Part shown: piece by piece, positions 29,614 to 57,318 of the stretch
Layout of the letters: every line of letters begins with the position of its first letter
How positions within the stretch are numbered: position 1 is the first letter of the stretch
From: Komagataeibacter swingsii
GTDB taxonomy: Bacteria > Pseudomonadota > Alphaproteobacteria > Acetobacterales > Acetobacteraceae
DNA length: 64,000 bases
Assembly (NCBI RefSeq): GCF_003207895.1
Contig: NZ_NKUB01000013.1
Location: 1-64,000, forward strand
Direction of reading: 5' to 3'
Notes under the pieces: model-generated
What the model saw: the letters and a program-made list of their open reading frames with translations, nothing else
The model's database searches: none
What the model was told of the DNA's origin: nothing
Made by a program: the position numbers and the translations under genes

Positions 29614-29688
29614 AAGTTTTTGGGCGCCGCCTTTTTTCAAAAAGGCGGCGTTCTTCGAAGCTTTTGAAAAAAGCTTCACCAAAAACGT
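29614..29688. repeat. Three-stem intergenic repeat, complete copy
   Basis: Outer arms AAGTTTTTGG (29614-29623) and CCAAAAACGT (29679-29688) pair with one mismatch. They enclose GCCGCCTTTTT/AAAAAGGCGGC and AAGCTTTT/AAAAGCTT hairpins. It lies between the convergent stops of the GntP gene (29598) and uvrA2 (29699). Relative to the copies at 37066 and 57203 it is inverted. Confidence 0.85.
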
Positions 29689-29698
29689 CTGTCTGTTT

Positions 29699-32239
29699 TC
29701 AGCCGGTCAGCGGCAGCAGGAACGGCGCGGTCGGGCTGCCGGGCATGCGCGCGACAGCGCGGGGCGTGCCAGCCGCGACGATCCGGCCCCCCGCATCCCC
29801 TGCGCCCGGTCCCATGTCGATCACCCAGTCCCCGCGCGCCGCGACCCGCATGTCATGTTCGGCCACCACCACGGTATGCCCGGCATCGACCAGTGATTGC
29901 AGGTGGGTCTGCAGCCGGTCCACATCCGCCGGGTGCAGGCCGGTTGTCGGTTCATCAAGGATATACAGCGTGTGGCCCCGACGCTGCTTCTGCAGTTCGG
30001 TCGCCAGCTTGATGCGCTGCGCCTCGCCCCCCGAAAGCTCGGTCGCGGGTTGCCCCAGCCGCAGGTAGCCAAGGCCGCCCTGTTGCAACGTGCCCAGCGC
30101 GTTGGCCAGTGATGGCGTGTCGGCAAAGAATGTGGCCGCGTCATCCACCGTCATGTTCAGGACATCGGCAATGGACTTGCCCCGTATCGTGACTTCCAGC
30201 ACATCCGGCTGGTAGCGCGTGCCGTGGCAGGTGGGGCAGGGGGAATAGACACTGGGCAGGAACAATAGTTCCACCATGACCGACCCGGCCCCCTCGCAGG
30301 TGGGGCAGCGGCCCTTGGGCAGGTTGAAGGAAAAGCGGCCCGCATCGTAACCGCGTGATTTCGCAAGGTCGGTTGCGGCATACATCTGCCGTATCGTGTC
30401 GAACAGGCCGGTATAGGTCGCAAGGTTGGAACGCGGCGTGCGGCCGATCGGCTTCTGGTCGATCATCACCAGCCGTCTGATCTGGCTGGCCCCCGTGGTG
30501 ACATGTCCCTGCGGTATGCCGATGGGCATGTCCTCGATGCTTTCGCCATCCATATCCTGTGCCAGCGTCTGTCCCAGTGCGTGCGCCACAATCGTGGGCA
30601 GGGCCTGGCTGACCAGGCTGGACTTGCCCGACCCGGACAGGCCGGTGACGGTCACGAACGTGCCCAGCGGGATCTCGACATTCAGGTCATGCAGGTTGTT
30701 CCACGTAATCCCAGCCAGCTTCAGCCATCCTTTCGGCGCACGCGGCGTGCCCGCGATGGGTGCGTCACTGGCGAACAGGTAGGGTGCGGTGCGCGACAGC
30801 TTCACGTCGCGCAGCCCGTCTGGCGGGCCGCTGTACAGCACCTCGCCCCCGCGCGTGCCCGCGTCGGGGCCGACATCGACAATCCAGTCCGCGCGGCGGA
30901 TCAGGTACAGGTTGTGTTCAACGATGAACAGCGAATTTCCCGCCGCCTTCAGCCCTTCCAGCGCATCCAGCAGGTTATGGGCATCCGCCGGGTGCAGCCC
31001 GCTGGAGGGTTCGTCGAGCACATAGACCACGCCAAACAGGTTGGAGCGGATCTGTGTCCCCAGCCGCAGCCGCTGGTATTCCCCCGGTGACAGGGTGGTC
31101 ACCGAACGATCGGCCTGCAGGTAGCCCAGCCCCAGATGTTCCAGCACGCCAATGCGGCCGATCAGGTCGGCGGCCATGCGGCGGGCGGCAATGGCGGTGG
31201 CGTCGCCCGCCTGTGGCGTGTCATCGGGCACCTGCGTGCCGGCGGCCAGTGGGGCGAGGGTATGGGCGATGGTGGACAGGGTCTGCCGCGTCATCTGCGC
31301 GATGTTCAGCCCGGCCAGCGTGACACGCAGCGCATCGGGGTTGAGGCGCTGCCCGTGGCAGGTAGGGCAGGGGGCCGCGGTCAGGAAGCGCTCGGCCCGC
31401 CTGCGCATGTTGGCACTCTGTGATGTTGCGAAGGTATGCAGCACGTAGCGCCGCGCGCCGGTGAACGTACCGTTATAGGACGGCGGCACATGGTCACGGA
31501 TCGCGCGCTGCACGGCGGCATGGTCCAGGCCGGGATAGACGGGGTAGGTCGGCGTTTCCTCGGTATAGAGGATCCAGTCGCGTGTTTCCTGCGGCAGGTC
31601 GCGCCACGGGCAGTCCACGTCCACGCCCTTGGTAATCAGGATGTCGCGCAGGTTCTGCCCCTGCCATGCGGTGGGCCACGCAGCCACGGCGCGCTGGCGG
31701 ATGGACAGGCTGTCGTCCGGCACCAGCAATGCGGTTGTGGTGTCCATGATCCGGCCCTGCCCATGGCATTGCGGGCAGGCCCCCATGGGGGTGTTGACGG
31801 AAAAGGATTCCGCCTCCAGCCGTTTCATGCCTGCCGGGTAATGCCCCGCGCGGGAATACAGCATGCGCAGCAGGTTCGACAGCGTGGTGATGCTGCCGAC
31901 CGAAGACCGCCCGGTGCCGGTGCCGCGCTGCTGCTGCAGGGCGATGGCGGGGGGCAGCCCCTCGATCGCGGTCACGTCGGGCACCGGCATCTGCCGGAAC
32001 AGGCGGCGTGCGTAGGGGGAGACGGATTCCAGGTACCGCCGCTGCGCTTCCGCATACAGCGTCCCGAAGGCGAGGGATGACTTCCCCGATCCCGAAACCC
32101 CGGTGAACACCACCAGCCGGTCGCGCGGCATGTCCACGCTCACATCCTTCAGGTTATGTTCGCGCGCCCCCCGGACATGCACGAAATCCGCGCGGTTGCG
32201 TGGATCGGGGCCTGAGGGGAAAAGGGGGCGCTGCGACAT
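29699..32239 (-). CDS. Class II UvrA-like excinuclease ATPase
   Basis: An 846-residue UvrA homologue shorter than canonical UvrA (about 940-960). Two ABC modules are present: Walker [10 protein letters not shown] (47-55) and [14 protein letters not shown], with signatures LSPGEYQRL and LSGGEAQR and Walker [14 protein letters not shown] and [13 protein letters not shown]. Zinc-finger pairs [16 protein letters not shown] and CPTCEGAG are visible. The region that binds UvrB appears reduced, as in class II UvrA linked to DNA-damage or drug tolerance. ATG 32239 is preferred to the TTG at 32257. Confidence 0.88.
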
Positions 32240-32458
32240 GGAAGGGCCTTCGTGCAATGTGCCGGTTACGGCGGTGCGTCTGGTGACCCTTCGTTATAAC
32301 GTGTCCGCCAGGTTTTGTCTGGCGCGCGATTTTGGTATTATCGAACGTTATATAATTACATGTGATCCGGTCACAGGCCGCCCGCTTGACCGATGGAACG
32401 GGGCAGCGCATCAGAAAGACTGGATCATGACAGAACGAACGATCAGGCAGGCGGAAGC

Positions 32459-32923
32459 ATGAAAAGGTTCATCATACTGGGCATATCCCTATGCGTGCTT
32501 TCCGGGGCGGCCCATGCGGCGGGCACCGGCCGGCATGGGGCTGCGGCTTCCGTCATTGCCGAGGCGGAGCGCCATGTCGCGGCCACCCTGCCTGACCCCC
32601 ACGGGGCGACATTCCGCAATGTCTCGGTGCATTCCATGGATGCGACATCGGTCGTATGTGGTGAAATGGCCCCGCATGACACGCCCGCGGGCGGGACGTT
32701 CATGAAGTTCGGTTATGTGCAGGGGCAGGATGATCCGGTGGTCTTCAGCGGTCGCGAAGTGCCGCAGAAAGTCGAGTTCAATGAGGTCAATTCATGGCTG
32801 AATGACAGCATCAAGCTGGAGGATCTGGAGGAAATGGGTTGCGTGCCCCGTGGCACCTACCATAGCTATAACGAACGGCTGAATAAGGTCATGTCCCAGC
32901 GCAAGCAGTTTGGCGTGAACTGA
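32459..32923 (+). CDS. Secreted protein of unknown function
   Basis: A 154-residue protein with signal peptide [20 protein letters not shown]. The mature part has two cysteines ([11 protein letters not shown] and [12 protein letters not shown]), with [15 protein letters not shown] and [19 protein letters not shown]. The LPDPxxxxFRNV...CGEVN-like pattern is shared by a group of small proteobacterial periplasmic proteins of unknown role. It is divergent from uvrA2. Confidence 0.7.
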
Positions 32924-33122
32924 GGGCAGGGCAACTTGTGTCCCCGGTGTGTGTTATGCGGGGCATGAATCCGGTAGCGCCATGTTCATGGCGGCATCAA
33001 TCGCAACCTGTTGCCGACCCGCGTTGCCGGGGCGGCCCCGTAACCGGATAATCCTATAATGATGGCGGGGTTCAGGCCGACAGGGTAGCGCGGCTTTCAT
33101 GTCGCGCAGGGAAGGGAAATTC

Positions 33123-33353
33123 ATGACAGATGTAACGCAGTCCATGCTGGGCCAGGATGTGTTCGCGACAGGTTCGGGCCGCATGGGCACGCTGACGGCG
33201 GTCAACACGGATGCAACCATCCAGATCACGGTTGATGGCCCGGCGGAAAGTACCTTCACCATTCCCGTGTCATGGGTGCAGTCCACTGATGGCGGCAAGA
33301 TCCTGCTCAGCCATACGCTGGAAGATGTGCAGTCCTATACCCCACCCGCCTGA
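33123..33353 (+). CDS. Small DUF2171-like protein
   Basis: A 76-residue protein with GQDVFATGSGRMGTLTAVN, FTIPVSWVQSTDGGKILLSH and a short C-terminal tail. The IPVSWV...D..I.L motif matches the small beta domain described as DUF2171 (PRC-barrel-like), whose role is unknown. ATG 33123 follows an AGGGAAGGG ribosome binding site. Confidence 0.6.
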   Translation: MTDVTQSMLGQDVFATGSGRMGTLTAVNTDATIQITVDGPAESTFTIPVSWVQSTDGGKILLSHTLEDVQSYTPPA

Positions 33354-33396
33354 AAGGCGCCATGCAGCCCCGGTGACGTAATGGAAGGCGCCAGTC

Positions 33397-34119
33397 ATGC
33401 CGCATGAACACCAGTGGCATTCCAGGCCGGTTGCCGGTGCGCCGCCGGATGACGATACGTTCCGCGTGCCGTTGCAGTACCCACCCGATGTGCTGCTGGC
33501 CCATGCGCGGGCGGCGCGCATGCCGGTGTTCGCACCCACGCCCCGGGCCGCCGACCTGGTTGACATGACGCAGGTCGATCCGGCGATCGCGCTGGATATC
33601 CGTTACGCCACGGCGCGGAATTTCCTGGGCTTTCCCGTCTATCCCGCGCCACGGGCGTTTTTGCAGCGCCCGGCGGCGCAGGCCCTGTCTCATGCACGCA
33701 CGCTCGCCGCGCGGCATGGTTACGGGTTGCTGGTTTATGATGCCTATCGCCCATGGCATGTCAGCTACCTGTTCCGGCAGGCGGTGCCGCGGGACCTGTA
33801 CGAATTCGTCGGTGATCCCGCCATCGGTTCCCGCCATAATCGCGGATGCGCCGTGGACCTGACCCTGTGGGACCTGGCGACGGGGCGGGTTGTCTCCATG
33901 CCGTCGGGTTTTGATGAAATGACACCACGTGCCCATGTGGCCTATGCCGGTGGGGATGAGGGCGCGCGCGCCCTGCGTGACCTGCTGGCCCGTATCATGG
34001 CGGCAAGCGGCTTCCTGCCGCTGGCCGAGGAATGGTGGCATTTCGATTATGCGGACTGGCAGGACTATCCGGTGCTGGACCTGCCGTTTGACGCGATCGG
34101 GCGCGATACCATGCCCTGA
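33397..34119 (+). CDS. D-alanyl-D-alanine dipeptidase (VanX/DdpX family)
   Basis: A 240-residue zinc metallopeptidase. It carries the catalytic Arg in YDAYRP (118) and the zinc motif SRHNRGCAVD (His147, Asp154). EWWHFDY supplies the general base Glu212 and the third ligand His215. It hydrolyses D-Ala-D-Ala released from peptidoglycan turnover, allowing reuse of D-Ala. No signal peptide is seen, so it is probably cytosolic. No vancomycin-resistance genes accompany it, so a role in cell-wall recycling is more likely. Confidence 0.9.
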   Translation: MPHEHQWHSRPVAGAPPDDDTFRVPLQYPPDVLLAHARAARMPVFAPTPRAADLVDMTQVDPAIALDIRYATARNFLGFPVYPAPRAFLQRPAAQALSHARTLAARHGYGLLVYDAYRPWHVSYLFRQAVPRDLYEFVGDPAIGSRHNRGCAVDLTLWDLATGRVVSMPSGFDEMTPRAHVAYAGGDEGARALRDLLARIMAASGFLPLAEEWWHFDYADWQDYPVLDLPFDAIGRDTMP

Positions 34120-34131
34120 CCGGATCAGGAT

Positions 34132-34443
34132 TCAGTCGTTGTGGATGGTGCGGTCAATCGAGCGCCCGGCCCTTTCCGCCGGTCCCTTGGGCGGGTCGAG
34201 CGTGTCCTGCATCTTGTCCCCGAAATGATCTATTTTCTCGCCCATGGTTTCATGATGCCGCTTGCACGCGCCTAGTCCCGTGCTGGCAAGGACCAGCGCC
34301 AGGCCGAGTGCGGCCAGCGAACGCATGCGGTGCCGGGACGGGCGCGCGGCACGGTCATGATGCAGGGACAGGCGGAACTGGATACGGGCCGAGGCATGGG
34401 GTGCATTCGGTGCTGTCGGGGGTGAGGACATGTGCGTATCCAT
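34132..34443 (-). CDS. Small probable lipoprotein with N-terminal extension
   Basis: A 103-residue frame. A hydrophobic segment ALGLALVLASTGLGAC with a lipobox-like GAC lies about 45 residues in. A charged tail MGEKIDHFGDKMQDTLDPPK then AERAGRSIDRTI follows, similar in character to entericidin/apolipoprotein-like helices. ATG 34443 follows AAGGCAGGGA, but starting at ATG 34326 would give a standard lipoprotein of 64 residues. The true start is undecided. Confidence 0.55.
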   Translation of the reverse strand: MDTHMSSPPTAPNAPHASARIQFRLSLHHDRAARPSRHRMRSLAALGLALVLASTGLGACKRHHETMGEKIDHFGDKMQDTLDPPKGPAERAGRSIDRTIHND

Positions 34444-34528
34444 GTGTGGGTCCCTGCCTTGGTTTGATGTCTCACCAAGTGTGAAAGCGGTGGCCGGGTT
34501 CCGGTTGCACATAAATGTGAGTCGCGCC

Positions 34529-34855
34529 CTAGCTGAACATGGCCCGGCATTCCGGGCACAGGCGCAGGAAGCGGCCATCCGCGACAAAGGCGGTATCGCA
34601 GTTCAGGCAGGTGCGGCGGACCTGGTCGGGGCGGTCCATGGGTATGGCGTGGCGGATGCGGTGGCGGCGCAGGTGGGCTTCCAGTGTCTTGATGTTCACG
34701 CCCAGCCTGCGCGCGGTTTCGCGGGTGGAGCAGCCCTGCCCGCGTAGCTGTGCGATGGTCGGGGCAATGGCGGTCCAGTCCAGCCGTGGTGGGCGTGTGC
34801 GACGGGGTGCGGGCGGGGTCTGTGCGCTCTGTGCGACTTCGTGTGCATGTTTCAT
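34529..34855 (-). CDS. Small DNA-binding protein: HTH plus zinc ribbon
   Basis: A 108-residue protein with a helix-turn-helix (about 25-65) LDWTAIAPTIAQLRGQGCST then RETARRLGVNIKTLEAHLRR. A C-terminal zinc-ribbon-like module has Cys pairs CLNC and CPEC. The layout recalls GcrA-type or recombinase-like HTH proteins with an added metal-binding motif. It is probably a transcription factor, but the targets are unknown. Confidence 0.65.
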   Translation of the reverse strand: MKHAHEVAQSAQTPPAPRRTRPPRLDWTAIAPTIAQLRGQGCSTRETARRLGVNIKTLEAHLRRHRIRHAIPMDRPDQVRRTCLNCDTAFVADGRFLRLCPECRAMFS

Positions 34856-34972
34856 ACGATATTTGTGTTAAAAAAACATACATACAGCAAGGAAATAATG
34901 CGGGAATAAAGAAATCAAAGCGTGCCTGCGGGATATTTGTGTATTTTATTCATACACATACCAGGAACCCTC

Positions 34973-35227
34973 ATGCACGATCCCTATCTGCCTGCCGGCT
35001 GTACCCAAGCTGACATCGATGCCCGATTCGAACCCGAGGAACCGGGCTGGGTCGCGTCTTATGTCATGCAACTCCAGCATCGCCTGCACCGCCTTGTGGC
35101 GATCCGGGCCGAATTTGCAGCCGACCGTTTTGATGGCGCCTATGACGGGGTGGATATCCTTGCCTATCTGGATGACGAGATGGCAACGGTCCGCATGGCA
35201 ATGGCGCATCCACAGGACAGGGATTGA
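34973..35227 (+). CDS. Small cytosolic protein of unknown function
   Basis: An 84-residue acidic, helical protein with GWVASYVMQLQHRLHRLVAI and DGVDILAYLDDEMATVRMAM. It is preceded by AT-rich promoter-like DNA (34862-34970). ATG 34973 was chosen because the longer frame from 34922 starts within that AT-rich region. No family is recognised. Confidence 0.5.
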   Translation: MHDPYLPAGCTQADIDARFEPEEPGWVASYVMQLQHRLHRLVAIRAEFAADRFDGAYDGVDILAYLDDEMATVRMAMAHPQDRD

Positions 35228-35337
35228 TCCCATCCATGGGGGGCGTAGCAGCAGCCGGATTACGGGCAACGATGCAGGATATTTCCATTTGAAAATGAAA
35301 TCGGGAACCGGCACAAGCAGGGGGACGCCTTTAATTC

Positions 35338-35868
35338 ATGGATTATGGAATGACCAAGCCTGCCTGCCTGCCCGATCTGGATCACGAATATTTCCTGCGG
35401 CAGTCCTTTGCCGTGGCGGAGCGTGCGCGCCAGGCGGGCGACCATCCTTTCGGCTGCGTGCTGGTTGATGCGCAGGGCGATGTGGTGATGGAACAGGGCA
35501 ATGGATACACGGCGGAAGGCGGTGACATGACCGCCCATGCCGAACGCCTGCTGGCCACGCGGGCATCAAAAGCCCATGCGCCGGACGTACTGGCGTCGTA
35601 CACAATGTACACATCCGCCGAACCCTGTGCGATGTGTGCGGGTGCGGTGTACTGGAGCGGGATCGGCCGCGTGGTCTATGGCCAGGGCGAGGCCAGCCTG
35701 AAGGCGATAACCGGCAACCACCCCGAAAACCCGACGCTCGACCTGCCGTGTCGTGTGGTATTCGCGGCGGGCCAGCGGCCGGTTGCGGTCATTGGCCCGC
35801 TGCTGGAAGACGAAGCGGCTGAATTGCAGCGCACGTTCTGGCGTGAAAAGGACGGACCAGCCGCCTGA
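35338..35868 (+). CDS. Nucleoside deaminase (TadA/guanine deaminase-like)
   Basis: A 176-residue zinc-dependent cytidine-deaminase-fold protein. The ligand and catalytic motifs are HAE (67-69) and PCAMC (96-100, Cys97 and Cys100). HPFGCVLVD in the first strand and IGRVVYGQGEASL are typical. A length of 176 and the C-terminal helix ELQRTFWRE fit guanine/nucleoside deaminases better than the tRNA-editing TadA, but this is not certain. ATG 35338 or 35350 may be the start. A three-stem repeat follows at its 3' end. Confidence 0.85.
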   Translation: MDYGMTKPACLPDLDHEYFLRQSFAVAERARQAGDHPFGCVLVDAQGDVVMEQGNGYTAEGGDMTAHAERLLATRASKAHAPDVLASYTMYTSAEPCAMCAGAVYWSGIGRVVYGQGEASLKAITGNHPENPTLDLPCRVVFAAGQRPVAVIGPLLEDEAAELQRTFWREKDGPAA

Positions 35869-35883
35869 AAACTTGAAAGGTAA

Positions 35884-35959
35884 AAGCTTTTGGGTGCCGC
35901 CTTTTTGAAAAAAGGCGGCGTTTTCCGAAGCTTTTTGCAAAAAGCTTCACCAAAAACTT
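35884..35959. repeat. Three-stem intergenic repeat, complete copy
   Basis: Arms AAGCTTTTGG (35884-35893) and CCAAAAACTT (35950-35959) pair with one mismatch. They enclose GCCGCCTTTTT/AAAAAGGCGGC and GAAGCTTTTT/AAAAAGCTTC hairpins. It lies between the convergent stops of the deaminase gene (35868) and the gene ending at 35976. Its orientation is as in the 29614 copy. Confidence 0.85.
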
Positions 35960-35975
35960 CTTTATGATTTAGCGA

Positions 35976-36485
35976 TCAGAATCCGTTGGTCGTGGTCTGT
36001 CCGTTGGCCATGGAATAGGAACAGGCCCGATCCCCGTCAGTCACCACCAGCCAGATGATATTGCGCAGCCCGATATAGAACTGCCCCGCATCCCGGAGCG
36101 AGGTATAGCCATGGTGGCGGAACCACGACGCCACGATGGTCGTGGGCTGGGTGCCAAAGGATTTCTTGACCGTTTCCAGCAGCCTGTCGCACTGCCCGCG
36201 ATTGAAGGTATCATGGTCCTGGTACCATATGCCCACCAGTATGGTGTTACGCCGGGGGTCGAAATCGGCCACGGGCATCATCGTGCTGTCATAGCTGTCG
36301 GGCAGGCTGTCGATTTCATGCTGCATGGCGCGTTCGGCGCGGATCAGGCCCAGGTCCATCATGGTCAGCTTGTCGGCAAACAGCGTGCTGATGACCTGTG
36401 ACGGGGCGGTCTGGGCGGCGGCAGTGCCGCAATATCCGCACATAAGGGCAAGGAACAGGAACAGGTAACGCAAGATATCCCCCAT
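35976..36485 (-). CDS. Secreted protein of unknown function
   Basis: A 169-residue protein with signal peptide MGDILRYLFLFLALMCGYCG then TAAAQ. The mature chain has TILVGIWYQDHDTFNRGQCD, KKSFGTQPTTIVASWF and LRNIIWLVVTDGDRACSYS, with one cysteine pair. No family is recognised. ATG 36515 is an alternative start, ten codons upstream. Confidence 0.65.
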   Translation of the reverse strand: MGDILRYLFLFLALMCGYCGTAAAQTAPSQVISTLFADKLTMMDLGLIRAERAMQHEIDSLPDSYDSTMMPVADFDPRRNTILVGIWYQDHDTFNRGQCDRLLETVKKSFGTQPTTIVASWFRHHGYTSLRDAGQFYIGLRNIIWLVVTDGDRACSYSMANGQTTTNGF

Positions 36486-36630
36486 GGCAGGACTGGTTCG
36501 GGCCATCCTTGTCATGGATGGGGCCGGTGCGGGCGGCCATGCATGTCATGTCATGACATGGATTAAATAAAAATAACCTTTTAGGCCATCTGGCTTACCT
36601 TGAAAGTTATGCGGATAACTCTTATCTGCC

Positions 36631-36897
36631 ATGATAATAATGACTGACATGGCGGTGAACGGGAGTGCGCGCGATATGACACGGATGAAACTTGCCCTGC
36701 GTGGCTGGTTGCAGGTGCTGCGTGGTCAGATCGTGCGCGAAATCGGATATGCCATAAGCCATGACCGCATGCAGCGCCGTGGCATCCTGATTGAAAAACT
36801 GGGCCACGGCCTGCTGTACCGTGCGCACCGCATGGGTCATGTCCCGGTGCCGGATATGGGGAAGACGGACCCCTATGCGCGGCCGCCGCGCGCCTGA
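36631..36897 (+). CDS. Small basic protein of unknown function
   Basis: An 88-residue protein. Its core KLALRGWLQVLRGQIVREIG then YAISHDRMQRRGILIEKLGH is amphipathic helical, with regularly spaced Gly and Arg. The spacing is vaguely like CsbD stress proteins but too basic to assign. Starts at 36631, 36640 or 36676 are possible. Confidence 0.5.
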   Translation: MIIMTDMAVNGSARDMTRMKLALRGWLQVLRGQIVREIGYAISHDRMQRRGILIEKLGHGLLYRAHRMGHVPVPDMGKTDPYARPPRA

Positions 36898-37065
36898 TGG
36901 GGCTGCGCGGTATCGAACGGGCGGGATATCAGAAAAAATTCATACGACTCTCCACGAGTCGTGGAAAACACACACCTTATCCCCGGTTCCCGACGGTTCT
37001 ATCCACAGGGTTGCCCGGATATTCGTCCCCCGAATCTGTGGATAAGGCGAAGGGGAACTAGACAG

Positions 37066-37141
37066 AAGTTTTTGGTGAAGCTTTTTTCAAAAAGCTTCCG
37101 GGAACGTCGCCTTTTTGAAAAAAGGCGACACCCAAAAACTT
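37066..37141. repeat. Three-stem intergenic repeat, complete copy with a compensated stem
   Basis: Perfect 10-bp outer arms AAGTTTTTGG (37066-37075) and CCAAAAACTT (37132-37141). The inner hairpins are AAGCTTTTT/AAAAAGCTT (perfect) and GTCGCCTTTTT/AAAAAGGCGAC. The second differs from the other copies (GCCGCC/GGCGGC) at both paired positions, so pairing is conserved. It lies between the gene ending 36897 and the adaptor gene ending 37165. Confidence 0.9.
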
Positions 37142-37164
37142 TTATTCTTTTTAAAAACAATCCT

Positions 37165-38115
37165 TTAACGATGCCCCGCAAGGTGCTGCATGTCATCCCC
37201 CACATGCCGCAGCGCATCACGCACTGACATATGGCGGCGGTTGCCCGCTTCCGACACTACGGTCACCGTGGCCGTCATGCCTGCGGCCAGCACAAGGTCT
37301 GGCGGGATGCTATCGATCTTCACGCGCACCGGGATACGCTGCGCCAGTCGCACCCATGTATAGACCGGGTCCACTGCCGGCAGGCCCTGTATGGATGTGG
37401 CGGCGTTGTTGCTGGCGATCCCGCGCGTGATGCTTTCCACATGGCCGAACAGCGGTTCATGGAACCCCATCAGGTCCAGCCGCACGGGTTCGCCTACCTT
37501 GATGGAATGGATTTTGGTTTCCTCGAAATACCCGTCCACCCAGTATGAATCCGCATCAATGACCTGGATGTTCACCTGCCCCGCATTGGCATAGTCGCCC
37601 GCGCGCATGGTCAGGTTGGTGACATAGCCGTTGATCGAACTGCGCACCTCGGTGCGTTCAAGGTTGATGCGCGCCTGTTTCAGGTCCGCAAGGGCCGCTG
37701 CATACTGGGCTTCCGCCTGCTGGGCCACGGCCTCGAACTGCTGCTTTTCCTCGCCCGATACCGCAACGCCCGAGATCTTCTGGCGGCGTTCGTACTGCGA
37801 TGTCTTGAATTCAAGGTCCGCGCGGCGTTCGTTCACGGCGGCATCGGCGATATCAAGCTTTACCCGGAAATCGAATGGGTCGATGACATACAGCACGTCG
37901 CCCTTGTGCACGAACTGGTTGTCATGCACGCGCACTTCGTTGATCTGGCCGGAAATGCGCGGCGCGATATTGGCGACCTGCGCACGGACCTGGCCGTTCC
38001 GTGTCCAGGGTGACGCCGTGTAGTAATCCCACAGCACGATGGCCACGATGGCCGCGACAGACAGGATGACAGCGGTAACGGCCAGACGCACAAGGCGGTT
38101 TGCATATGCGAACAC
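37165..38115 (-). CDS. HlyD/AaeA-type periplasmic adaptor protein
   Basis: A 316-residue membrane-fusion protein with an N-terminal anchor (about 10-30, VTAVILSVAAIVAIVLWDYY). The barrel-sandwich hybrid domain shows ISGQINEVRVHDNQFVHKGD and VRSSINGYVTNLTMRAGDYA around a helical hairpin. It links the inner-membrane FUSC pump to an outer-membrane channel. It is the last gene of a three-gene operon, 12 bp after the DUF1656 gene. The start is GTG 38115. Confidence 0.88.
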   Translation of the reverse strand: MFAYANRLVRLAVTAVILSVAAIVAIVLWDYYTASPWTRNGQVRAQVANIAPRISGQINEVRVHDNQFVHKGDVLYVIDPFDFRVKLDIADAAVNERRADLEFKTSQYERRQKISGVAVSGEEKQQFEAVAQQAEAQYAAALADLKQARINLERTEVRSSINGYVTNLTMRAGDYANAGQVNIQVIDADSYWVDGYFEETKIHSIKVGEPVRLDLMGFHEPLFGHVESITRGIASNNAATSIQGLPAVDPVYTWVRLAQRIPVRVKIDSIPPDLVLAAGMTATVTVVSEAGNRRHMSVRDALRHVGDDMQHLAGHR

Positions 38116-38127
38116 GTCAGGATTCTT

Positions 38128-38322
38128 TCACAAGATCAGGGTATACAGGCCAACAAGGCAGATCAGCAGGCCGAACTGCGCCAGCGGCGGGTTCCAGACA
38201 AACCGCCACAGGTTGAACCATGACAGCACGATGCGCAGCACCAGCAGCGTGCACAGCGCCAGGCCAAGGTTCATGACAAAGGCCGAGATCAGCACGCCTT
38301 CCAGATCAACAACCTGCCGCAT
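38128..38322 (-). CDS. DUF1656 (AaeX-like) small membrane protein
   Basis: A 64-residue protein with two hydrophobic helices. LEGVLISAFVMNLGLALCTL and QFGLLICLVGLYTLIL are typical of DUF1656. In AaeX-AaeA-AaeB operons this small protein sits beside the pump; its role is unclear. Its ATG overlaps the FUSC stop by one base (TGATG), indicating coupled translation. Confidence 0.85.
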   Translation of the reverse strand: MRQVVDLEGVLISAFVMNLGLALCTLLVLRIVLSWFNLWRFVWNPPLAQFGLLICLVGLYTLIL

Positions 38323-40382
38323 CAGCCTGCCTTCCTCGTCTTGATGATGCCGTAATGCCGCAATCGTGGCGCCGCCGCCTGCCACGCTCGCATCACGCCA
38401 TCCAGCCCCGCCAGCAGGTTGATGGCCGCGATCTGTGTCTGGACTGGCAACTGGGCCTGCGGGGCGGGGATGGCGGCCATCGCCTCGCGCATGCGGGGCA
38501 CCACGTCCCACGGCGCGTGCAGCAGCAGTTCGCGTAGCGCCCGTTCGGCGGCGGGGCGCAGCAGGGTGATCGCCTGCGCCTGCCGGGCATAGGTCCGCGC
38601 CCGCGCCAGCGCGCCATCAAGCTCGGCAAAGGTGGTGAAGCTTTCCATCTGGCGTGCGCTGCTGGAACTGCCGGGCAGGCGGTCGGTCCAGAACTGCATC
38701 TGGGCCAGCCGGTCATAGGCGCGGGTCAGGCGGGCCGGGCTGTCGGCTTTGCCATGGCCGGCCATCTGGCGTTCCAGCGCGCGTACGATGGTGGACGCCA
38801 TCCAGAACCGCTGCCGCCGGGGTGAGGGCGGAAACAGCAGCACAAGGATGATGAAGGCCAATAGGGCCGCCAGCAGGTAGAAGATGTTGCGGTTGAGGAA
38901 TTCCGTCGGATTATAGCTCTGGTGATTGTCCAGCCCCAGTATGGCGAAGAAGAACACGCCATAGTTGAAGCCTATGGCCGCCGTGGACGGACGCATGAGC
39001 AAAAGGCAGGCCAGGAATGTCTGGGGCAGCAGCGCCAGCGCCAGGAACGGCATGTCCGCCCCGTGCAGCAGCACGAAGAAGTTCAGCAGCGCCGCCGCCA
39101 GCACGCTGCAGGGCAGGCCGATGATCGCCCCCATGCCAAAGCGCGCCGTATCCACATTGGTTGCGGCAAGAGTCAGGGTCAGCGCGGTCTGGGCCAGCGC
39201 CACGGTCGATCCCGGCAGGCCGGTCATCACGCACACCCCGGCGGCGAACGAAAACCCGACCAGAACCCGCAATGCCCCGATCAGGGCCAGCAGGTAGTTG
39301 GGCTGCACCGCGATATTGATGGTCCTGTCATGGGCGTTGCCCGTACCTTCGGTCAGTACCGCCTGTCCGGCATGCATGCGGGTGCGTGCACTCAGCATGC
39401 GGGCGGCGCGTTCAATGGCGAAGGCTTCATCCGCGTTGGGCGCATGACCCGGCAGGGCGGCGCGCACGGCATCCAGTATATGCGTGGTGAAACCGCCCTG
39501 GTCGGTGCGCAGGTCGGTCTGCCGGGCGACGCGGGCAATGGCGTCCTCCACGGCCGGGTCGATGTTGCCATGCCCGGTATGCCGCCCCAGCCCGCGCGCG
39601 CAGTCCAGTATGGTCAGCATGGACACCATGGCCAGCCGTGCGCCGTTGGCGCGCGTGCCGCCGCGTTCCAGCTCCGTGCGGGCATAGGACAGGGGTGTGG
39701 TCAGGGCGAGTATGCGCGCGCCCAGCCGGATGTCGGCCTGTGCGCCCCGGTCGTACATGTGCTGCAGGGCGGCGCGCGCGGTTTCGCTCAGCGGACGGAT
39801 AAGCTGTTTCAGCCCGGTTGCCAGTCCTCGCCATGCCTCGGGCGAGCCGGACAGGATATTGACCACGGCGACGGCGAATACCCCAAGCGTAATGGCTGAG
39901 GCGCGGGACACCGCGATGTTGAATATGTTCTGGGGCGTATCAATGCAGTTCACGGCCACAAGGGCGACCGTATAACCTGACAGCAGGGCAGCGTAGGAGC
40001 GGAAGTCGCGTTCCAGCGACCCCACGAAGGCGCAGGCCGCAAGCCACAGCGCAACACCCCCCAGAAAGGGGCCGCGCTGCTGGTTCCACACCGCCACCAG
40101 CACAATGGACACCCCCATGCCCACCATAGTGCCCAGCAGCCGGTAAAAGGCCTTGGACAGCGCCTGCCCGCGCAGGGGTTGCGCCAGGATCATGACCGTG
40201 ACGCCAACCAGCAGCGGATTATCCAGTTGCAGCCAGAAGGCCGTGGCCAGTCCCAGCACCAGCGAACACCATGTGCGCAGGCTGAATCCTACCCAGCCCG
40301 CGGGCAGGTGGTCGGTCCGGGGAAGGAAGGTACGCATGATGTCGTGAATACGCCGCGCGCTGTGTGCCTGTAGGTCTGGCAT
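38322..40382 (-). CDS. FUSC/AaeB-type inner-membrane exporter
   Basis: A 686-residue protein with two sets of about five to six transmembrane segments (around 30-180 and 355-500) and two cytoplasmic domains. Motifs include SLRTWCSLVLGLATAFWLQL with PLRGQALSKAFYRLLGT, and the second-half counterpart near FSFAAGVCVMTGLPGS. AaeB-type pumps export aromatic carboxylic acids and related metabolites. It is the first gene of the operon with DUF1656 and an HlyD protein. A second, orphan FUSC is at 13689. Confidence 0.86.
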   Translation of the reverse strand: MPDLQAHSARRIHDIMRTFLPRTDHLPAGWVGFSLRTWCSLVLGLATAFWLQLDNPLLVGVTVMILAQPLRGQALSKAFYRLLGTMVGMGVSIVLVAVWNQQRGPFLGGVALWLAACAFVGSLERDFRSYAALLSGYTVALVAVNCIDTPQNIFNIAVSRASAITLGVFAVAVVNILSGSPEAWRGLATGLKQLIRPLSETARAALQHMYDRGAQADIRLGARILALTTPLSYARTELERGGTRANGARLAMVSMLTILDCARGLGRHTGHGNIDPAVEDAIARVARQTDLRTDQGGFTTHILDAVRAALPGHAPNADEAFAIERAARMLSARTRMHAGQAVLTEGTGNAHDRTINIAVQPNYLLALIGALRVLVGFSFAAGVCVMTGLPGSTVALAQTALTLTLAATNVDTARFGMGAIIGLPCSVLAAALLNFFVLLHGADMPFLALALLPQTFLACLLLMRPSTAAIGFNYGVFFFAILGLDNHQSYNPTEFLNRNIFYLLAALLAFIILVLLFPPSPRRQRFWMASTIVRALERQMAGHGKADSPARLTRAYDRLAQMQFWTDRLPGSSSSARQMESFTTFAELDGALARARTYARQAQAITLLRPAAERALRELLLHAPWDVVPRMREAMAAIPAPQAQLPVQTQIAAINLLAGLDGVMRAWQAAAPRLRHYGIIKTRKAG

Positions 40383-40483
40383 GGCCTCCCTGACCGTTCA
40401 GTGGCCTCATGGCGCTTGATACAATGGAAATGGCCGGGAATTCATAACAAAGGATGTACAGGCATAAAGTGCATGCCTGTTAT

Positions 40484-41881
40484 TCACTCCGGGGATATCA
40501 CCCGGTGCCGGACCACTTCCCCCACAATGATCAGCGCGGGGCTGCCCACCCCTGCTTCCGCCGCCTGCCGCGCAAGCGCCCCCAGCGTGCCGGTCAGCAC
40601 GCGCTGGTCCACGCGCGTGCCGCGTTCGACAATGGCTGCGGGCCAGTCCGCCGGCAGGCCGTGCGCCATAAGCTGCGCGCACAGGGCGGGCAGGGCGGAA
40701 ACCCCCATATAGATCACCACCGTCTGCCCCGGTCGCGCCATGCTGTCCCATGGCAGGTGCAGCGTACCGTCCGCGCGGGCGTGTCCGGTCACGAACATGC
40801 AGGCCTGCGCGCAGTCGCGGTGGGTCAGCGGGATACCGGCATAGGCGGCGCAGCCATTGGCCGCCGTGATGCCGGGTACCACCTGAAACGGGATGGCGGA
40901 GTCCATCAAGGCCTCGATTTCCTCGCCCCCGCGCCCGAACACGAACGGGTCGCCGCCCTTCAGCCGCAGCACGCGCTGGCCCATGCGCGCGCGGCGGACC
41001 AGTTCGGCATTGATCTCCTCCTGCGGCATGGTGTGTTTGTTCCGCCGCTTGCCCACGAACACCAGTTCCGCATCGCGCCGCACCCGGTCCAGCAGGGCAG
41101 GGGACAGCAACTGGTCATACAGCACGCAATCCGCATTCTGCATGAGGTGCAGCGCGCGCAGCGTCAGCAGGTCCGGGTCACCCGGTCCCGCGCCGACCAG
41201 CCAGACCTCGCCCCGCGTGCCGGTGACGGCGATGATGTCATCCAGTATGGCGCGCGCGCGCGCGCCATCTCCCCGCCGGGCGGCCTGCGCGCCCGCGCCG
41301 TCAAGGAAGGTTTCCCAGACCTGCCGGCGGCGGGAAATGTCGGGGCAGGCCGCCCCTACATGCTCGCGCTGCTGCTGCATGAACACGGCCAGTTCCCCCG
41401 TGCCATCGGGTATGGTGCTTTCCACCTGTTCGCGCAGGCGGCGGGCCAGCACGGGGGCCGCGCCGCCGGTGGAAATGGCGATGCGTACCAGCCCGCGATG
41501 GATCTGGGCCGGGGTGATGAAGGTGGAGGGCTGCGGGTCATCCACCGCGCAGACGGGAATGTTCATCTCCTGCGCCAACGCTGCGGCCGTGCGGTTGACC
41601 GCGCGGTCATCGGTCGCGGCATAGACCAGCCGGCAGCCGGGCATGGCGGCGCGCAGGGTGGTGGCATCAGCCGTGCTGGCGACGTGGGTGATGGTGCCGT
41701 CTTCCGCCCATGCCTGCATTTCCGCATCGAGGCGGCCCGCCACGACCGCGACCTTCGCGCGGTGGGCCAGCAGCAGGCGCACCTTGTTGGCCGCGATCAT
41801 GCCGCCGCCAATCACCAGCACCCGGACATCGTCCAGCCGCAGCGCAATGGGAAACCATGCGGGTTCGGGAATATGGGTCAT
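40484..41881 (-). CDS. cysG: Siroheme synthase (multifunctional)
   Basis: A 465-residue CysG that makes siroheme from uroporphyrinogen III. The N-terminal precorrin-2 dehydrogenase/ferrochelatase domain has the NAD motif VLVIGGGMIAANK. A dimerisation region lies around 115-210. The C-terminal methyltransferase domain has VWLVGAGPGDPDLLTLRAL, LKGGDPFVFGRGGEE and VVPGITAANGCAAYAGIPLT. Siroheme is the cofactor of sulfite and nitrite reductases; no cysI/nirB is in the window. Confidence 0.93.
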   Translation of the reverse strand: MTHIPEPAWFPIALRLDDVRVLVIGGGMIAANKVRLLLAHRAKVAVVAGRLDAEMQAWAEDGTITHVASTADATTLRAAMPGCRLVYAATDDRAVNRTAAALAQEMNIPVCAVDDPQPSTFITPAQIHRGLVRIAISTGGAAPVLARRLREQVESTIPDGTGELAVFMQQQREHVGAACPDISRRRQVWETFLDGAGAQAARRGDGARARAILDDIIAVTGTRGEVWLVGAGPGDPDLLTLRALHLMQNADCVLYDQLLSPALLDRVRRDAELVFVGKRRNKHTMPQEEINAELVRRARMGQRVLRLKGGDPFVFGRGGEEIEALMDSAIPFQVVPGITAANGCAAYAGIPLTHRDCAQACMFVTGHARADGTLHLPWDSMARPGQTVVIYMGVSALPALCAQLMAHGLPADWPAAIVERGTRVDQRVLTGTLGALARQAAEAGVGSPALIIVGEVVRHRVISPE

Positions 41882-46082: not shown

Positions 46083-46289
46083 TTTCCATGCCCTGCCTAT
46101 ATTTTATCGATGGACGAACATGCGCAAGCAAACAGAAATTCATCGCGCCATCTTCTGAAGTTTTGAGTGACCGCAATTTGAATAGAAAATAATGAGGCGG
46201 ATTATGCTATATTTATATTTACGACTTGGGTTCGTATATTTATTGCTATTTTATAGTTAAATTCGTTGATGGTGTTGTTTTTTCTATTA

Positions 46290-46451
46290 GAGACTGTTTG
46301 AAAAGTCAGCTCATGATAGCGCTTTAAAATTAAAGGAAGTTTTTGGTGAAGCTTTTTGCAAAAGCTTCGAAAGAACGCCCCTTTTTGAAAAAAAGGCAGC
46401 ACCCAAAAACTTTTATTGTTTTTTATCAATTGGTTGTTTTCAAACAGTCTC
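46290..46451. mobile_element. MITE-like element carrying a three-stem repeat (copy 1)
   Basis: A 162-bp element with terminal inverted repeats GAGACTGTTTGAAAA (46290-46304) and TTTTCAAACAGTCTC (46437-46451). It is flanked by direct TTA (46287-46289 and 46452-46454). It carries a three-stem repeat (46337-46412) and no coding capacity. TNA-type 3-bp duplications are typical of several IS5 relatives. The copy at 57156-57318 is nearly identical and in the same orientation. Confidence 0.82.
46337..46412. repeat. Three-stem repeat inside MITE copy 1
   Basis: Perfect outer arms AAGTTTTTGG (46337-46346) and CCAAAAACTT (46403-46412) and a perfect first hairpin. The second hairpin has lost one base (GCCCC for GCCGCC) and has a GGCAGC right arm, so it is weakened. 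This copy is not at a convergent gene junction. Confidence 0.85.
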
Positions 46452-46698
46452 TTAGACAATGAGAGCATTTTTTCAAATCTCTCATTGCCTTGTCGTGAGC
46501 GGAAAAGACACTATTTCCATCAGGCGCAGTTTTGTCCTGCGGCCGTGCCGACGGGGTGTGGAACGGTCTTTCGCATGTTTCATGCCCAGAAACGCTGCTA
46601 TACTCGCTCACAGTGCATGGCACTCTCTACATTAATATTGATTTTAATTAGTAAAAATAATATGTTCCCCGTATCTTTATGTTTTAGGTGGGTTGGAA

Positions 46699-47730
46699 AT
46701 GAAATGTCTTGTCACAGGAGGGGCCGGTTATGTGGGAAGTCACGTTGTAGCTGGTTTATTGGACGCAGGGCATGAGGTTGCTGTCATTGATAATCTCAGC
46801 ACGGGCTATCGTGCGGCCATACCGAATGACATACGTTTTTTCCAATTCGATCTTCTGGATGCTGAAGCCATAAATCAGATTCTCGCAAACGAGAAATGGG
46901 ATGTCGTCCTTCACTTTGCCGCCTTATCCCTTGTTAACGAATCAATGTGTAAGCCGTTTTATTATCTTCGTCAAAATTATATTACAGCCCTTAACCTTAT
47001 AGAAGCATGTGCCATAAATGGCGTAAAGCGATTTGTTTTTTCGTCTACCGCGGCCTTGTTCGGTGGCAAGGAGCGATTTTCACTGATTCCGGATGATGCA
47101 AGGGTTGAAGCCAGTTCCCCTTATGGAGAAAGTAAATTCCTGATTGAACGTGCGCTGGTCTGGGCTGACCAGATATACGGCATGCGAAGTGCATCCTTGC
47201 GTTATTTCAACGCCGCTGGCGCCGACCCACTTGGGCGCCTGGGGGAAGAACATACACCTGAAACGCACCTTATCCCGTTGGCGGTTGATACTGTTCTGGG
47301 TCTTCGTCGGAATCTGAAGATTTTCGGGAATGATTATCCGACACGGGACGGTACGTGCATTCGCGACTATATCCATGTCACGGATCTGGCAGAGGCCCAT
47401 ATACGCGTCATCGAACTGCTCGATCATCGGTCCGTTACTTACAATCTTGGTAACGGTCTTGGTTTTACCAATATGGAAGTCGTTCAGGCTGTTGAACGTG
47501 TAAGCGGCAGGAAGTTACCATGGGATTGGGCACCGCGGCGGAAGGGTGATCCCAGTATGCTCGTGGCTGATTCTACCCTTATACGTTGGGAAACGGGTTG
47601 GTCTCCCCGTTATTCGTCCATTGATGTCATTGTGGAAACGGCGCTTCAGTGGCGAAAAAAGCACCCTCATGGATATGAAAAATTAGTCAATGAGTGCGAC
47701 CTATATAATAGTATCCTTATCAAGGATTAA
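46699..47730 (+). CDS. galE: UDP-glucose 4-epimerase
   Basis: Interconverts UDP-glucose and UDP-galactose with bound NAD, supplying galactose for surface glycans. The 343-residue SDR has the Rossmann motif TGGAGYVGSH at the start. Catalytic Ser lies in FSSTAALFG, YGESK carries Tyr/Lys, and RYFNAAGADP and CIRDYIHVTDLAEAH follow. GC content is lower than in the core genome. AGGTGGG precedes ATG 46699; an in-frame TTG at 46693 is less likely. A remnant of a second galE-like gene is at about 57480-57545. Confidence 0.92.
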   Translation: MKCLVTGGAGYVGSHVVAGLLDAGHEVAVIDNLSTGYRAAIPNDIRFFQFDLLDAEAINQILANEKWDVVLHFAALSLVNESMCKPFYYLRQNYITALNLIEACAINGVKRFVFSSTAALFGGKERFSLIPDDARVEASSPYGESKFLIERALVWADQIYGMRSASLRYFNAAGADPLGRLGEEHTPETHLIPLAVDTVLGLRRNLKIFGNDYPTRDGTCIRDYIHVTDLAEAHIRVIELLDHRSVTYNLGNGLGFTNMEVVQAVERVSGRKLPWDWAPRRKGDPSMLVADSTLIRWETGWSPRYSSIDVIVETALQWRKKHPHGYEKLVNECDLYNSILIKD

Positions 47731-48424
47731 GAGCGCGCTCTTGGGTTCTGCTGGCAAAAAAACGTGATGTCCGGTTTGCGGTGGGAAACCCTGATCCGGG
47801 CAATGGCGGAGCGGGATTGCGCACGGCAGCGGGGTTGCCCGTCCATGCCTCACGCTGCCCATCTGCCGTAGTGCGCGCGATCTCTGGCGGCTGGGGGGCA
47901 ACCCTATTCTGTTTATTCGTCAGGGGAACTTGGAAGCGCAGATGGATCATATCGTAAGTGTCCTGCATATCTGGACCCGGGTATGGATTTTCTGTTTCTA
48001 AAATATCTTTATGTTTTTTCGTCAATGCAGTGACGTACGGTCTATATTTATCCCGTGGTATGGTCTACATATAGGCGACAAGGTCTATAAATTTTCTTGC
48101 ATGACAGCGATTAATTTTTCGTATCTGAAATATATCTATATGAAAACATTATGATTTATTTCGGATTGCAACGATGGTGCATTTTTTTTGCCATTATTCA
48201 GGGCAATATGGCTTGCTGGGCTGTGGGAAAAGAGATGGCGGTCCGCGCCGGACATGGTCGTGCATATCTGCGGAGGCTATGTATGGCCAGACGAAATGTG
48301 ATCTGATAAAAGGTGCCCGGATCAATCCATCTTCTTCATAATTTTAATGGCATGCTGAAAATGTGCGGGTTTCATGACACTTTGATTACCTTTATTCGCC
48401 ATAACCTCTAGTCACGGTGTTACA
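47731..48424. other. Intergenic region, 694 bp, upstream of kpsD
   Basis: The first part (47731-47960) is GC-rich and holds a 101-codon minus-strand frame with no ribosome binding site or family, which I do not accept as a gene. The second part (about 47995-48424) is AT-rich and probably contains the capsule promoter. It includes three GGTCTA direct repeats. The last 80 bp resemble the region upstream of the second kpsD. Confidence 0.5.
48039..48087. promoter_or_regulatory. Three direct GGTCTA repeats upstream of kpsD
   Basis: GGTCTA occurs at 48039-48044, 48062-48067 and 48082-48087 (spacing 23 and 20 bp), each followed by an AT-rich TATA/CATA tract. Spacing near two helical turns could place a regulator on one face. 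No known binding motif is recognised. Confidence 0.3.
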
Positions 48425-55866: not shown

Positions 55867-56158
55867 TGTCATATTGCGTTGTTAAACATCTGGATTAAGG
55901 GTTTTTTGCCGGTTTGGAAAAAATTTCTCTCTATTGCGTAGTGAATAGGATTCAGCGTAAATCGGACAGACCCAATCATTATGATAAAATGCCAGAAGTC
56001 AGATGTTCGCGGGATATCAACGGCGGTGAGCAAGAATAAAAAAGATATCATATCTGGCAAAATGGCAATACGATGTGCCGAAATATGTTGTCTGTAAAGG
56101 GCTGTTCAGGCAGGGAAGCTGAATTCATGCCGAATATGATTTTTCAAAGGTACCTATT

Positions 56159-56794
56159 ATGCAGCAAAAGTGTAGGATAAAGGAAGAGGCGCCCGTTCGC
56201 CTGTTCAAGAATCCTGTCATGGAATCCCTGACGCTGCTGTCCTTTGGTGTATTCGCGGCGGTATGGACCGTTGTACTCTCTGTCGCCCTGATCGTAGCAT
56301 GGTACATGTCGTCATCGGTAGGCAATCTGCTGTGGCACTGTCTGATCGGGTTTGTCGCCTGGTTCCCGTTCGAATATCTGATGCACCGGTTTCTGTTTCA
56401 TTTTAACGGCCAGTCTGCATTCATGAAATCCATGATCTACCTCCTGCATGGCAACCATCATGATCAGCCCAATCATCCCCTGCGGAACCTGATGCCGCTC
56501 AGTGCATCGCTACCCCTTGCCCTGCTGATCTGGGTGGGGTGCGTATGCAGCATGGGATATGATGCGGGCAGCGCAGTGGCCGCAGGGTTCCTGTGCGGGT
56601 ATGTCGCCTATGACATCGTGCATTATTCCTGCCACCAGTTCCCGATGCGTATGAGCCTGCTGCGCAAGATCAAGATTCACCATATCAACCACCATTATCG
56701 CCAGAGTAACGCCAACTATGCGATTACGGCGGTTTTCCTTGACCGGATATGCCACACGGATGTCAATCGTCCGGGCAGCAAGAAAATTTCCTAG
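56159..56794 (+). CDS. Fatty acid hydroxylase/sterol desaturase superfamily protein
   Basis: A 211-residue membrane di-iron enzyme. It has about four hydrophobic segments and the His-box series HRFLFHF, HGNHHDQPNH, HYSCHQ and IHHINHHYRQSNANY. This is the pattern of fatty-acid 2-hydroxylases and related enzymes that hydroxylate membrane lipids. In this locus it may tailor the lipid anchor or membrane, but that is inference. A 290-bp gap separates it from the glycosyltransferases, so it may have its own promoter. Confidence 0.85.
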   Translation: MQQKCRIKEEAPVRLFKNPVMESLTLLSFGVFAAVWTVVLSVALIVAWYMSSSVGNLLWHCLIGFVAWFPFEYLMHRFLFHFNGQSAFMKSMIYLLHGNHHDQPNHPLRNLMPLSASLPLALLIWVGCVCSMGYDAGSAVAAGFLCGYVAYDIVHYSCHQFPMRMSLLRKIKIHHINHHYRQSNANYAITAVFLDRICHTDVNRPGSKKIS

Positions 56795-57155
56795 CATCAG
56801 TATCCAACAGGTGATCTGGTGCATGGCTTTTTGCCGTGGCGCCATTTCCCTTCCGGTTCATGCATACGATCAAGCCGTGTGTGGCGTCTCCCCCACGCCC
56901 TGCCGGGGCGCCGGGATAGGGTGTCCTGTCATATTCCGGGTATCTTGCCGCACCGGCTCCAGCATTACGGCGTGGTTCTGCCGTCTATACGGTGGCCTGA
57001 TGCTGTCCGCATGGTTTGATTTCAGTAAACGGATACTGCTTCGGCTCTCAGGCATTTCAGAAGATGGCCCCAGGTTACTTACTTTTTTCATGTTACTTTC
57101 AATAAAAAATCGTAAATCAAGCATGCGGCAGCCTGTTTCCTGCTGGAATATCTTA

Positions 57156-57318
57156 GAGACTGTTTGAAAAGTCAGATCATGATAGCGTTTTAAAATTAAA
57201 GAAAGTTTTTGGTGAAGCTTTTTGCAAAAGCTTCGAAAGAACGCCGCCTTTTTGAGAAAAAGGCGGCACCCAAAAACTTTTATTGTTTTTTATCAACGAT
57301 TTGTTTTCAAACAGCCTC
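57156..57318. mobile_element. MITE-like element carrying a three-stem repeat (copy 2)
   Basis: A 163-bp element with inverted ends GAGACTGTTTGAAAA (57156-57170) and TTTTCAAACAGCCTC (57304-57318, one mismatch). It is flanked by TTA on both sides (57153-57155 and 57319-57321). It is nearly identical to the element at 46290-46451 and in the same orientation. Confidence 0.82.
57203..57279. repeat. Three-stem repeat inside MITE copy 2
   Basis: Outer arms AAGTTTTTGG (57203-57212) and CCAAAAACTT (57270-57279) are perfect. Both inner hairpins are intact, with GCCGCC/GGCGGC in the second. This is one of the best-preserved copies. Confidence 0.88.

Follow-up and report, generated by a model that had tools for sequence, protein, structure and literature searches.

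The stretch of DNA analysed here, called the window, is 64,000 nucleotides (nt) of the genome of Komagataeibacter swingsii (contig NZ_NKUB01000013.1, positions 1 to 64,000). It carries a dispersed repeat with a unit of 76-86 bp and a three-stem core, in which an outer stem (P1) encloses two inner hairpins (P2 and P3) in a three-way junction. Complete cores at 29608-29692 and 35878-35963, both profile matches on the minus strand, lie between convergent genes. Those at 37062-37147 and 43147-43232 are on the plus strand; the first has a compensated P3 variant, GTCGCC/GGCGAC, that is shared by an oppositely oriented copy at the orthologous site, and the second has its left edge at the stop codon of the open reading frame 42294-43148 and, counting matches of at least 45 bits, is reversed in 7 related genomes. 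Two further cores lie on the plus strand within longer elements of the kind known as miniature inverted-repeat transposable elements (MITEs). The core at 46333-46418 is inside a 162-bp MITE (46290-46451, plus strand) with perfect 15-bp inverted ends GAGACTGTTTGAAAA and a TTA target-site duplication (46287-46289 and 46452-46454), and the core at 57199-57285 is inside a 163-bp MITE (57156-57318, plus strand) with one mismatch in its inverted ends, also flanked by TTA (57153-57155 and 57319-57321). A seventh core is interrupted, with its left part at 16109-16133 and its right part at 16954-17014 (both plus strand), the break being within P2.

The first-pass annotation of this DNA listed seven near-complete copies with one shared architecture, and we find them where it put them, six complete and one split by an insertion. 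It treated them as a free intergenic repeat and missed the nesting of two of them in the 162-163-bp MITE. Two of its four degenerate copies are significant, at 22634-22707 (30 bits) and 11973-12017 (a partial core, 24.5 bits), both on the plus strand, and the other two, on the minus strand at 2077-2101 (E 0.21) and 5245-5265 (E 0.08), are possible remnants not significant on their own. Its figure of one copy per 6 kb holds only if such weak remnants are counted. With a cut-off of at least 28 bits the window has 8 copies (one per 8 kb), as against 27 in the other 354 kb (one per 13 kb) of a 418-kb sample made up of the window, the first 220 kb of contig C58 and the whole of contig C113. The high copy number that it proposed is borne out and is far above chance, as there are 35 copies in the sample, equivalent to about 310 in a genome of 3.73 Mb, and a whole-genome search gave at least 150.

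The core consensus (27 copies), written in the order P2 then P3, is AAAGAAGTTTTTGG TGAAGCTTTTTTCAAAAAGCTTC linker GCCGCCTTTTTGAAAAAAGGCGGC ACCCAAAAACTTTTATT. On single-strand folding the minimum-energy structure of both consensus strands is the outer stem with two inner hairpins, which confirms the three-stem plan, and relative to dinucleotide shuffles the z scores are -6.9 and -6.6 for the two strands as RNA and -6.2 and -7.2 as DNA. An initial consensus fold, in which the 5' arm of P2 paired with the 3' arm of P3, gave way to the three-way structure, which was specified manually. Derivatives that lack P2 and keep P1 and P3 are seen at locus L217 (1501-1626) and in K. xylinus K2G30 (L124) at the C58:79655 site.

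The occurrence in acetic acid bacteria and relatives expected in the first-pass annotation is also found. All 19 genomes of the same genus are positive, with from 36 to at least 112 matches each, and in a wider draw, with search filters that lose weak matches, there are matches in 22 of 150 genomes and 15 of 102 genera of the family. Two genomes of one other genus (G106 and G174) match as strongly as the genus itself, and the remaining matches are weaker. The named matches among plasmids number six, five from Komagataeibacter and one from Novacetimonas. Of 17 loci scanned in named genomes of Komagataeibacter, Novacetimonas and Gluconacetobacter entanii, 16 have the element, and none of six Gluconacetobacter loci scanned alongside has it. 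At orthologous gaps (L137, L138, L139 and L131) Gluconacetobacter and N. maltaceti have another GC-rich hairpin composite, CAAGGGC..GCCCTTG beside CCAAAGG..CCTTTGG, which looks like another dispersed repeat.

Ends, target sites and a possible driver

The end motif of the MITE is a 15-bp inverted repeat of IS5 type (GAGRCTGTTTGAAAA). There are 63 exact matches to the motif GAGNCTGTTTGAAAA in the genome and none to the reversed control. Among the loci fetched from this genome are 32 elements with paired ends; all but one measure 160-164 bp, the exception being 126 bp long, and all are non-coding and too short for a transposase. A perfect 3-bp duplication flanks 21 of the 32 (TTA 10, TAA 6, TGA 3, TCA 1 and TTG 1), and all of these except TTG fit TNA (20 of 21).

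TNA comprises TAA, TGA, TTA and TCA, which correspond to two stop codons, TAA and TGA, on one strand or the other, and for this reason harmless insertion in stop codons is possible. In six of the 32 MITEs a stop codon ends 0 nt from the element, and four of the six have a perfect duplication. Stop codons are not clearly over-targeted, as 6 of 32 compares with 327 of 2577 for non-coding TNA sites. The site C58:80570 is an illustration: it is empty in six Komagataeibacter genomes, with a single TGA shared by two convergent genes, in K. swingsii the element lies between two TGAs, and in K. oboediens it is behind the same TGA with a decayed end, GAGACGGTTGGAAAAG.

Decay of the ends was followed in 53 copies, comprising the 35 of the sample and 18 further loci of this genome, intact MITEs included. 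Allowing at most 4 mismatches in 15 and asking for the motif on at least one side, 18 of the 53 have it (0.7 expected from shuffles), seven of them at both ends, the sample's intact MITEs being among these seven. Given the 32 copies with paired ends, the 21 perfect duplications and these 18 copies, the repeat is, at least partly, the core of a family of MITEs, kept after the ends decay. Judged from sequence, mobility of the element is well supported.

Mobilisation would be by an IS5-type transposase, and there is a possible driver. Genome G012 has an apparently intact 883-bp IS5-type insertion sequence (IS) with one frame of 274 amino acids (L281, 1261-2143), and its ends, GAGCCTGTTTGGAAAA and GAGCCTGTTTGAAAA, match the MITE ends at 14 and 13 of 15 positions. 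A disrupted relative in G018 matches PF13340 and DDE_Tnp_1 and has TAA on both flanks. Among the first 30 PF13340 loci none has paired MITE-type ends, and a single end was found once (L272). End-like motifs 600-2500 bp apart are present in 11 of 50 loci scanned, but nearly all such pairs include a 3-mismatch hit, of a kind that the core itself can yield.

Other transposase sequences were seen in the window. The insertion that interrupts the seventh core (16134-16953, plus strand) has GGGCCTGTTGGGAATTATGC-like ends and carries the remnant of an IS5-type transposase gene, with a PF13340 match at 16204-16425 that has one in-frame stop in a six-frame search; two reading frames of the insertion tried against Pfam gave no match. 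An IS5-family IS with ends GGGCCTGTTGGG.. lies in P2 of two copies, this one and one on C58 near 127396 (L015), and as the same IS type is in P2 of both, the core is a possible insertion hot spot for it. There is a second PF13340 transposase match near the left edge (175-393) and a short transposase-like match at 63820-63984. The relatives G010, G016 and G006 align up to about 45518, just past a tRNA-Gly gene (45439-45513), where the long match stops, and the DNA beyond may be an integrated island.

Placement, retention and orientation of the core

Genes were called with our own hexamer gene caller, and not taken from curated annotation. Of 34 sample copies that could be assigned, 21 are between convergent genes as against 3.95 expected by bases (p 5e-12), 13 are in tandem gaps and none is in a divergent gap. 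Put in terms of the regions available, a copy is present in 21 of the 60 convergent regions, in 13 of the 259 tandem ones and in none of the 59 divergent ones, and with a stricter gene threshold the 35 copies divide into 23 convergent, 11 tandem and 1 divergent. A stop codon is within 35 nt of 27 of the 35 sampled copies (35 of 56 distances). The pattern holds at 19 further top-scoring loci outside the sample (the 30 best-scoring, less ten inside the sample and L032), of which 13 are convergent, 5 tandem and 1 divergent, with a median stop distance of 18 nt. The 29 intact MITEs that could be classed are already biased, 16 being convergent, 12 tandem and 1 divergent with about 3.4 convergent expected by base share, so the placement bias arises early. 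In other genera, 27 loci comprise 6 convergent, 19 tandem and 2 divergent, and the stop distance is at most 35 nt in 23 of 31 cases. As these loci are mostly tandem and yet near stops, the 3'-end association is general, and the convergent excess is shown for this genome only.

The core is better conserved than its surroundings. In 14 clusters of orthologous copies in the same orientation, each from at least three genomes (one further cluster could not be parsed and was skipped), mean identity is 0.837 for the core, 0.663 for the left flank and 0.624 for the right flank, with flanks taken 8-22 nt out, and the core exceeds the left flank in 12 of the 14 clusters and the right flank also in 12. 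This likeness of cores could also come from gene conversion between copies.

There is in addition some covariation. When 118 copies are aligned to the model, 94.4% of cells pair, and in P3 the pair 56-87 has changed from C-G to U-A in 9 copies, a compensated change. A further 43 pair types are seen, a number reached by none of 500 shuffles; the score was likewise reached by none, the count of pairs changed on both sides by 24 and that of cells changed on both sides by 12, though this alignment was fitted to the structure and related copies inflate covariation counts. For the 27 seed copies covariation is weak, with 265, 105, 25 and 17 of 500 shuffles reaching the observed pair types, score, both-sided pairs and both-sided cells respectively. 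The suggestion in the first-pass annotation that the core acts as an RNA or DNA structure is supported by core conservation and in part by covariation.

The two orientations of the core, P2 to P3 or the reverse, are both found at orthologous sites. At 45 bits or more, six of nine loci followed have both orientations in different species. With both flanks anchored and a lower cut-off, 174 copies gave 580 orthologous pairs in 20 clusters, and both orientations are present in 10 of the 20 (one cluster being two MITE copies of this genome); where flank identity is at least 90%, 31 of 167 pairs are reversed. The pairs are not independent, and a few low-scoring ones look misanchored. The cleanest case is that of Ga. 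entanii and N. maltaceti, for which the flanks are 98.7% identical over 397 bp and the element is reversed between its outer arms. At the window site 37061 the compensated P3 variant GTCGCC/GGCGAC occurs in both orientations, and at 29610 genomes G014 and G015 have the linker GAAAAGAACACC in common, in orientations opposite to each other. Copies persist at the same site between genomes that are about 80% identical. The interior could invert in place, since the P1 arms are also short inverted repeats, and we infer that inversion is the cause of most of the orientation changes.

Eight other genera (g5, g36, g37, g50, g51, g72, g84 and g96) have matches with the outer motif AAAGTTTTTTGG..CCAAAAACTTT. 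In all eight this encloses two inner inverted repeats with T-run/A-run cores, and the stem sequences are different (GGTTC/GAACC, GCTTC/GAAGC, CTCCC/GGGAG, GTGGCCCC/GGGGCCAC and others). There are up to 141 matches per genome, but true copies are fewer, as many places match on both strands. MITE ends are near-absent, being found at one of 27 loci with up to 4 mismatches (0.2 expected), and the core thus looks older than its present vehicle in Komagataeibacter. With the reservation on folding given below, the comparison between genera is a stronger argument than covariation that the inner stems are kept through double changes. Copies in G113 (L061, L071 and L081) are near-perfect palindromes of 76-77 bp that allow pairing between the two inner repeats.

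What the core may do

The explanation that we favour, by a modest balance, is that the repeat is a MITE of IS5 type and that its core has been kept between convergent genes as a terminator or 3'-end element working in both directions. The core would ride between the 15-bp ends GAGRCTGTTTGAAAA, inserting at TNA and duplicating it, and an insertion into a stop codon would duplicate the stop, leave the protein unchanged and set the core directly behind the gene. The ends would then erode and the core be kept, to serve as a two-way terminator or 3'-end barrier by means of its three-way junction and the U-rich tails that would follow P1 in transcripts of both strands. The outer stem is followed by CTTTTATT on one strand and by a CTTCTTT-like sequence on the other. 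Inversion of the interior between the P1 arms would be tolerated by a two-way terminator. From placement behind stops, retained structure, the presence of both orientations and the U-rich tails, the function is probably that of a bidirectional terminator or 3'-end barrier.

A number of observations weigh against this explanation, some of them on function. A simple terminator scan of 28000-47999 gave 17 sites as against 15.7 in shuffles, and flagged one of the five copies there. At orthologous sites without the element, predicted folding has a z score of -2 or below in 17 of 35 cases and not in the other 18, and 12 more are shorter than 15 nt; since these sites are mixed in fold strength, a hairpin is not always needed. 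The set includes element remnants, in G004 (among the 17) and in K. xylinus 21569 at C58:79655 (among the 18). Of the 27 loci folded from other genera, 11 (in genomes G022, G101, G152, G172 and G177) have the three-way junction as their minimum-energy structure, and at most of the remaining 16 the two inner repeats are mutually complementary and are predicted to form a single long hairpin. With regard to covariation, controls with the structure slid along the alignment had 9-15 both-sided pairs (-3: 11, +2: 15, +3: 11) as against 10 in the structure itself, and the P1 pair 11-74 shows none, having 8 double changes where about 8 are expected from column counts.

Other observations of this kind bear on the history of the copies. 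Under the 4-mismatch rule 35 of the 53 copies have no end motif, and we suggest that these too descend from such insertions. Over the nine loci followed, reversed orthologues in general resemble copies of their own locus no more than they resemble paralogues (a value as high came up in 949 of 2000 null draws), so that at most loci replacement by another copy fits as well as inversion, and the case for inversion is kept to the individual loci described above. As to the driver, the G012 IS lacks a clean target duplication, and its transposase found only distant matches in the part of this genome searched (the assembly has 113 contigs in all), the best being 29% over 131 residues (in two insertions) and 44% over 55 residues at the right edge of the window.

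The alternative that survives best is a purely selfish MITE, in which insertions elsewhere have been purged and cores are alike through youth or gene conversion. We think it unlikely, though it must be taken seriously. The placement of the intact MITEs could be read in this way, as could the frequency of stop-codon insertions, which is close to random choice among non-coding TNA sites, and at several loci the interiors of orthologues are scarcely more similar among themselves than they are to those of paralogues. It accounts poorly, however, for the divergence of flanks and ends around a core that stays, for the P3 pairing kept through double changes, for persistence at one site between genomes so far diverged, and for the recurrence of the same make-up in other genera with different stems.

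The core could instead be a topological or protein-binding DNA element, such as a binding site for gyrase or a nucleoid protein, at which supercoils arising between converging transcription units would be relieved. The association of bacterial interspersed mosaic elements (BIMEs) with gyrase is a precedent, and convergent placement and the strong folding as DNA would suit such a role. So would the lack of transcribed-strand preference: the test of G.U against A.C pairs gave no consistent strand, which also counts against a terminator acting as RNA. Yet the tight placement behind stops exceeds what topology would need, and with P2 and P3 differing in sequence between genera no fixed protein site is apparent, so we regard this possibility as improbable. 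Movement as repetitive extragenic palindromes (REPs), or the mobile REP doublets called REPINs, by a REP-associated tyrosine transposase (RAYT, a Y1 transposase) is suggested by the short, palindromic, intergenic copies in their hundreds, but is very improbable, as the inverted ends and TNA duplications of young copies indicate a DDE transposase; PF01797 was found in none of the 19 same-genus genomes and in 5 of 14 control genomes.

A bolder version of the retained-terminator explanation is that the three-way junction is an ancient element of the Acetobacteraceae, older than its vehicle, that was captured between IS5-type ends, with their TNA target matching stop codons on both strands, and became a portable two-way terminator, with which the genome has been re-terminated hundreds of times and whose orientation may be switched in place without loss of function. 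We put this forward tentatively, as somewhat less likely than not.

Relation to known elements and significance

These genomes contain transposases of IS5 type, one of them in an element with ends close to those of the MITE, and we take IS1031 to be a member of the IS5 family. IS1031 and its derivatives are given as the only mobile elements reported earlier in Komagataeibacter in the available text of a paper that also predicts more IS families (PMC6528568). The IS5-family elements of the genus are autonomous, and a MITE with a structured core is not mentioned in that portion of PMC6528568. In Wolbachia, ISWpi1 has a T(T/A)A target, and in-place inversion between its terminal inverted repeats is described at 2 of 22 loci; in contrast to our element it is, from the sections available, a full IS with 23-bp ends, and here P1 arms of 10-12 bp surround a structured core (PMC3004938).

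Correia repeat-enclosed elements of Neisseria have ends of their own and a TA target. They resemble our core, as far as the available text describes them, in being MITEs beside genes that can affect expression and for which inversion is reported, and differ, on a comparison by description, in being upstream of genes with promoter activity, whereas the present copies are at 3' ends (PMC10969869). A small dispersed repeat from another phylum shares with ours its resemblance to a terminator, but a three-way-junction core in an IS5-type shell is not described for it in the same excerpt, again comparing by description (PMC10969869). Hairpin-cluster intrinsic terminators of other bacteria have two or more adjacent hairpins and lie for the most part no more than 80 bases from the stop codon, and in the text available to us are not described as a repeated mobile family (PMC8355165).

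REP/REPIN elements with their RAYTs, and the GTAG and CGTC REP families, are high-copy intergenic palindromes as here, but the present core is longer, with three stems and transposon ends and without a RAYT. CGTC repeats are given as missing in Acetobacteraceae in the available part of PMC3733652. Names of acetic acid bacterial genera gave no hit in PMC2267715 and PMC4666352, and REPs and MITEs are mentioned only in general in the accessible portion of PMC4686929. The first-pass annotation knew of no named family, and we too found none: the whole window gave only two tRNAs against Rfam at gathering thresholds, leaving the repeat unmatched, and no description of it was found in the titles and abstract openings returned by searches of the open-licence literature. 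There are precedents for MITEs, for terminator-like repeats and for inverting elements. What is new, as far as our search went, is that a three-way-junction core, TNA insertion at stops and renewal of the inner stems between genera are combined in one family.

To our knowledge the way in which bacteria acquire transcription ends between convergent genes has been little studied. The family provides a natural experiment, with orthologous sites both occupied and empty, a vehicle eroded to different degrees around a core that is kept, and both orientations at a site, in bacteria that are used industrially for cellulose and vinegar. If the core does terminate transcription, then a transposon with a stop-codon target would be handing out terminators genome-wide, and its cores would be compact two-way terminators for use in the engineering of Komagataeibacter.

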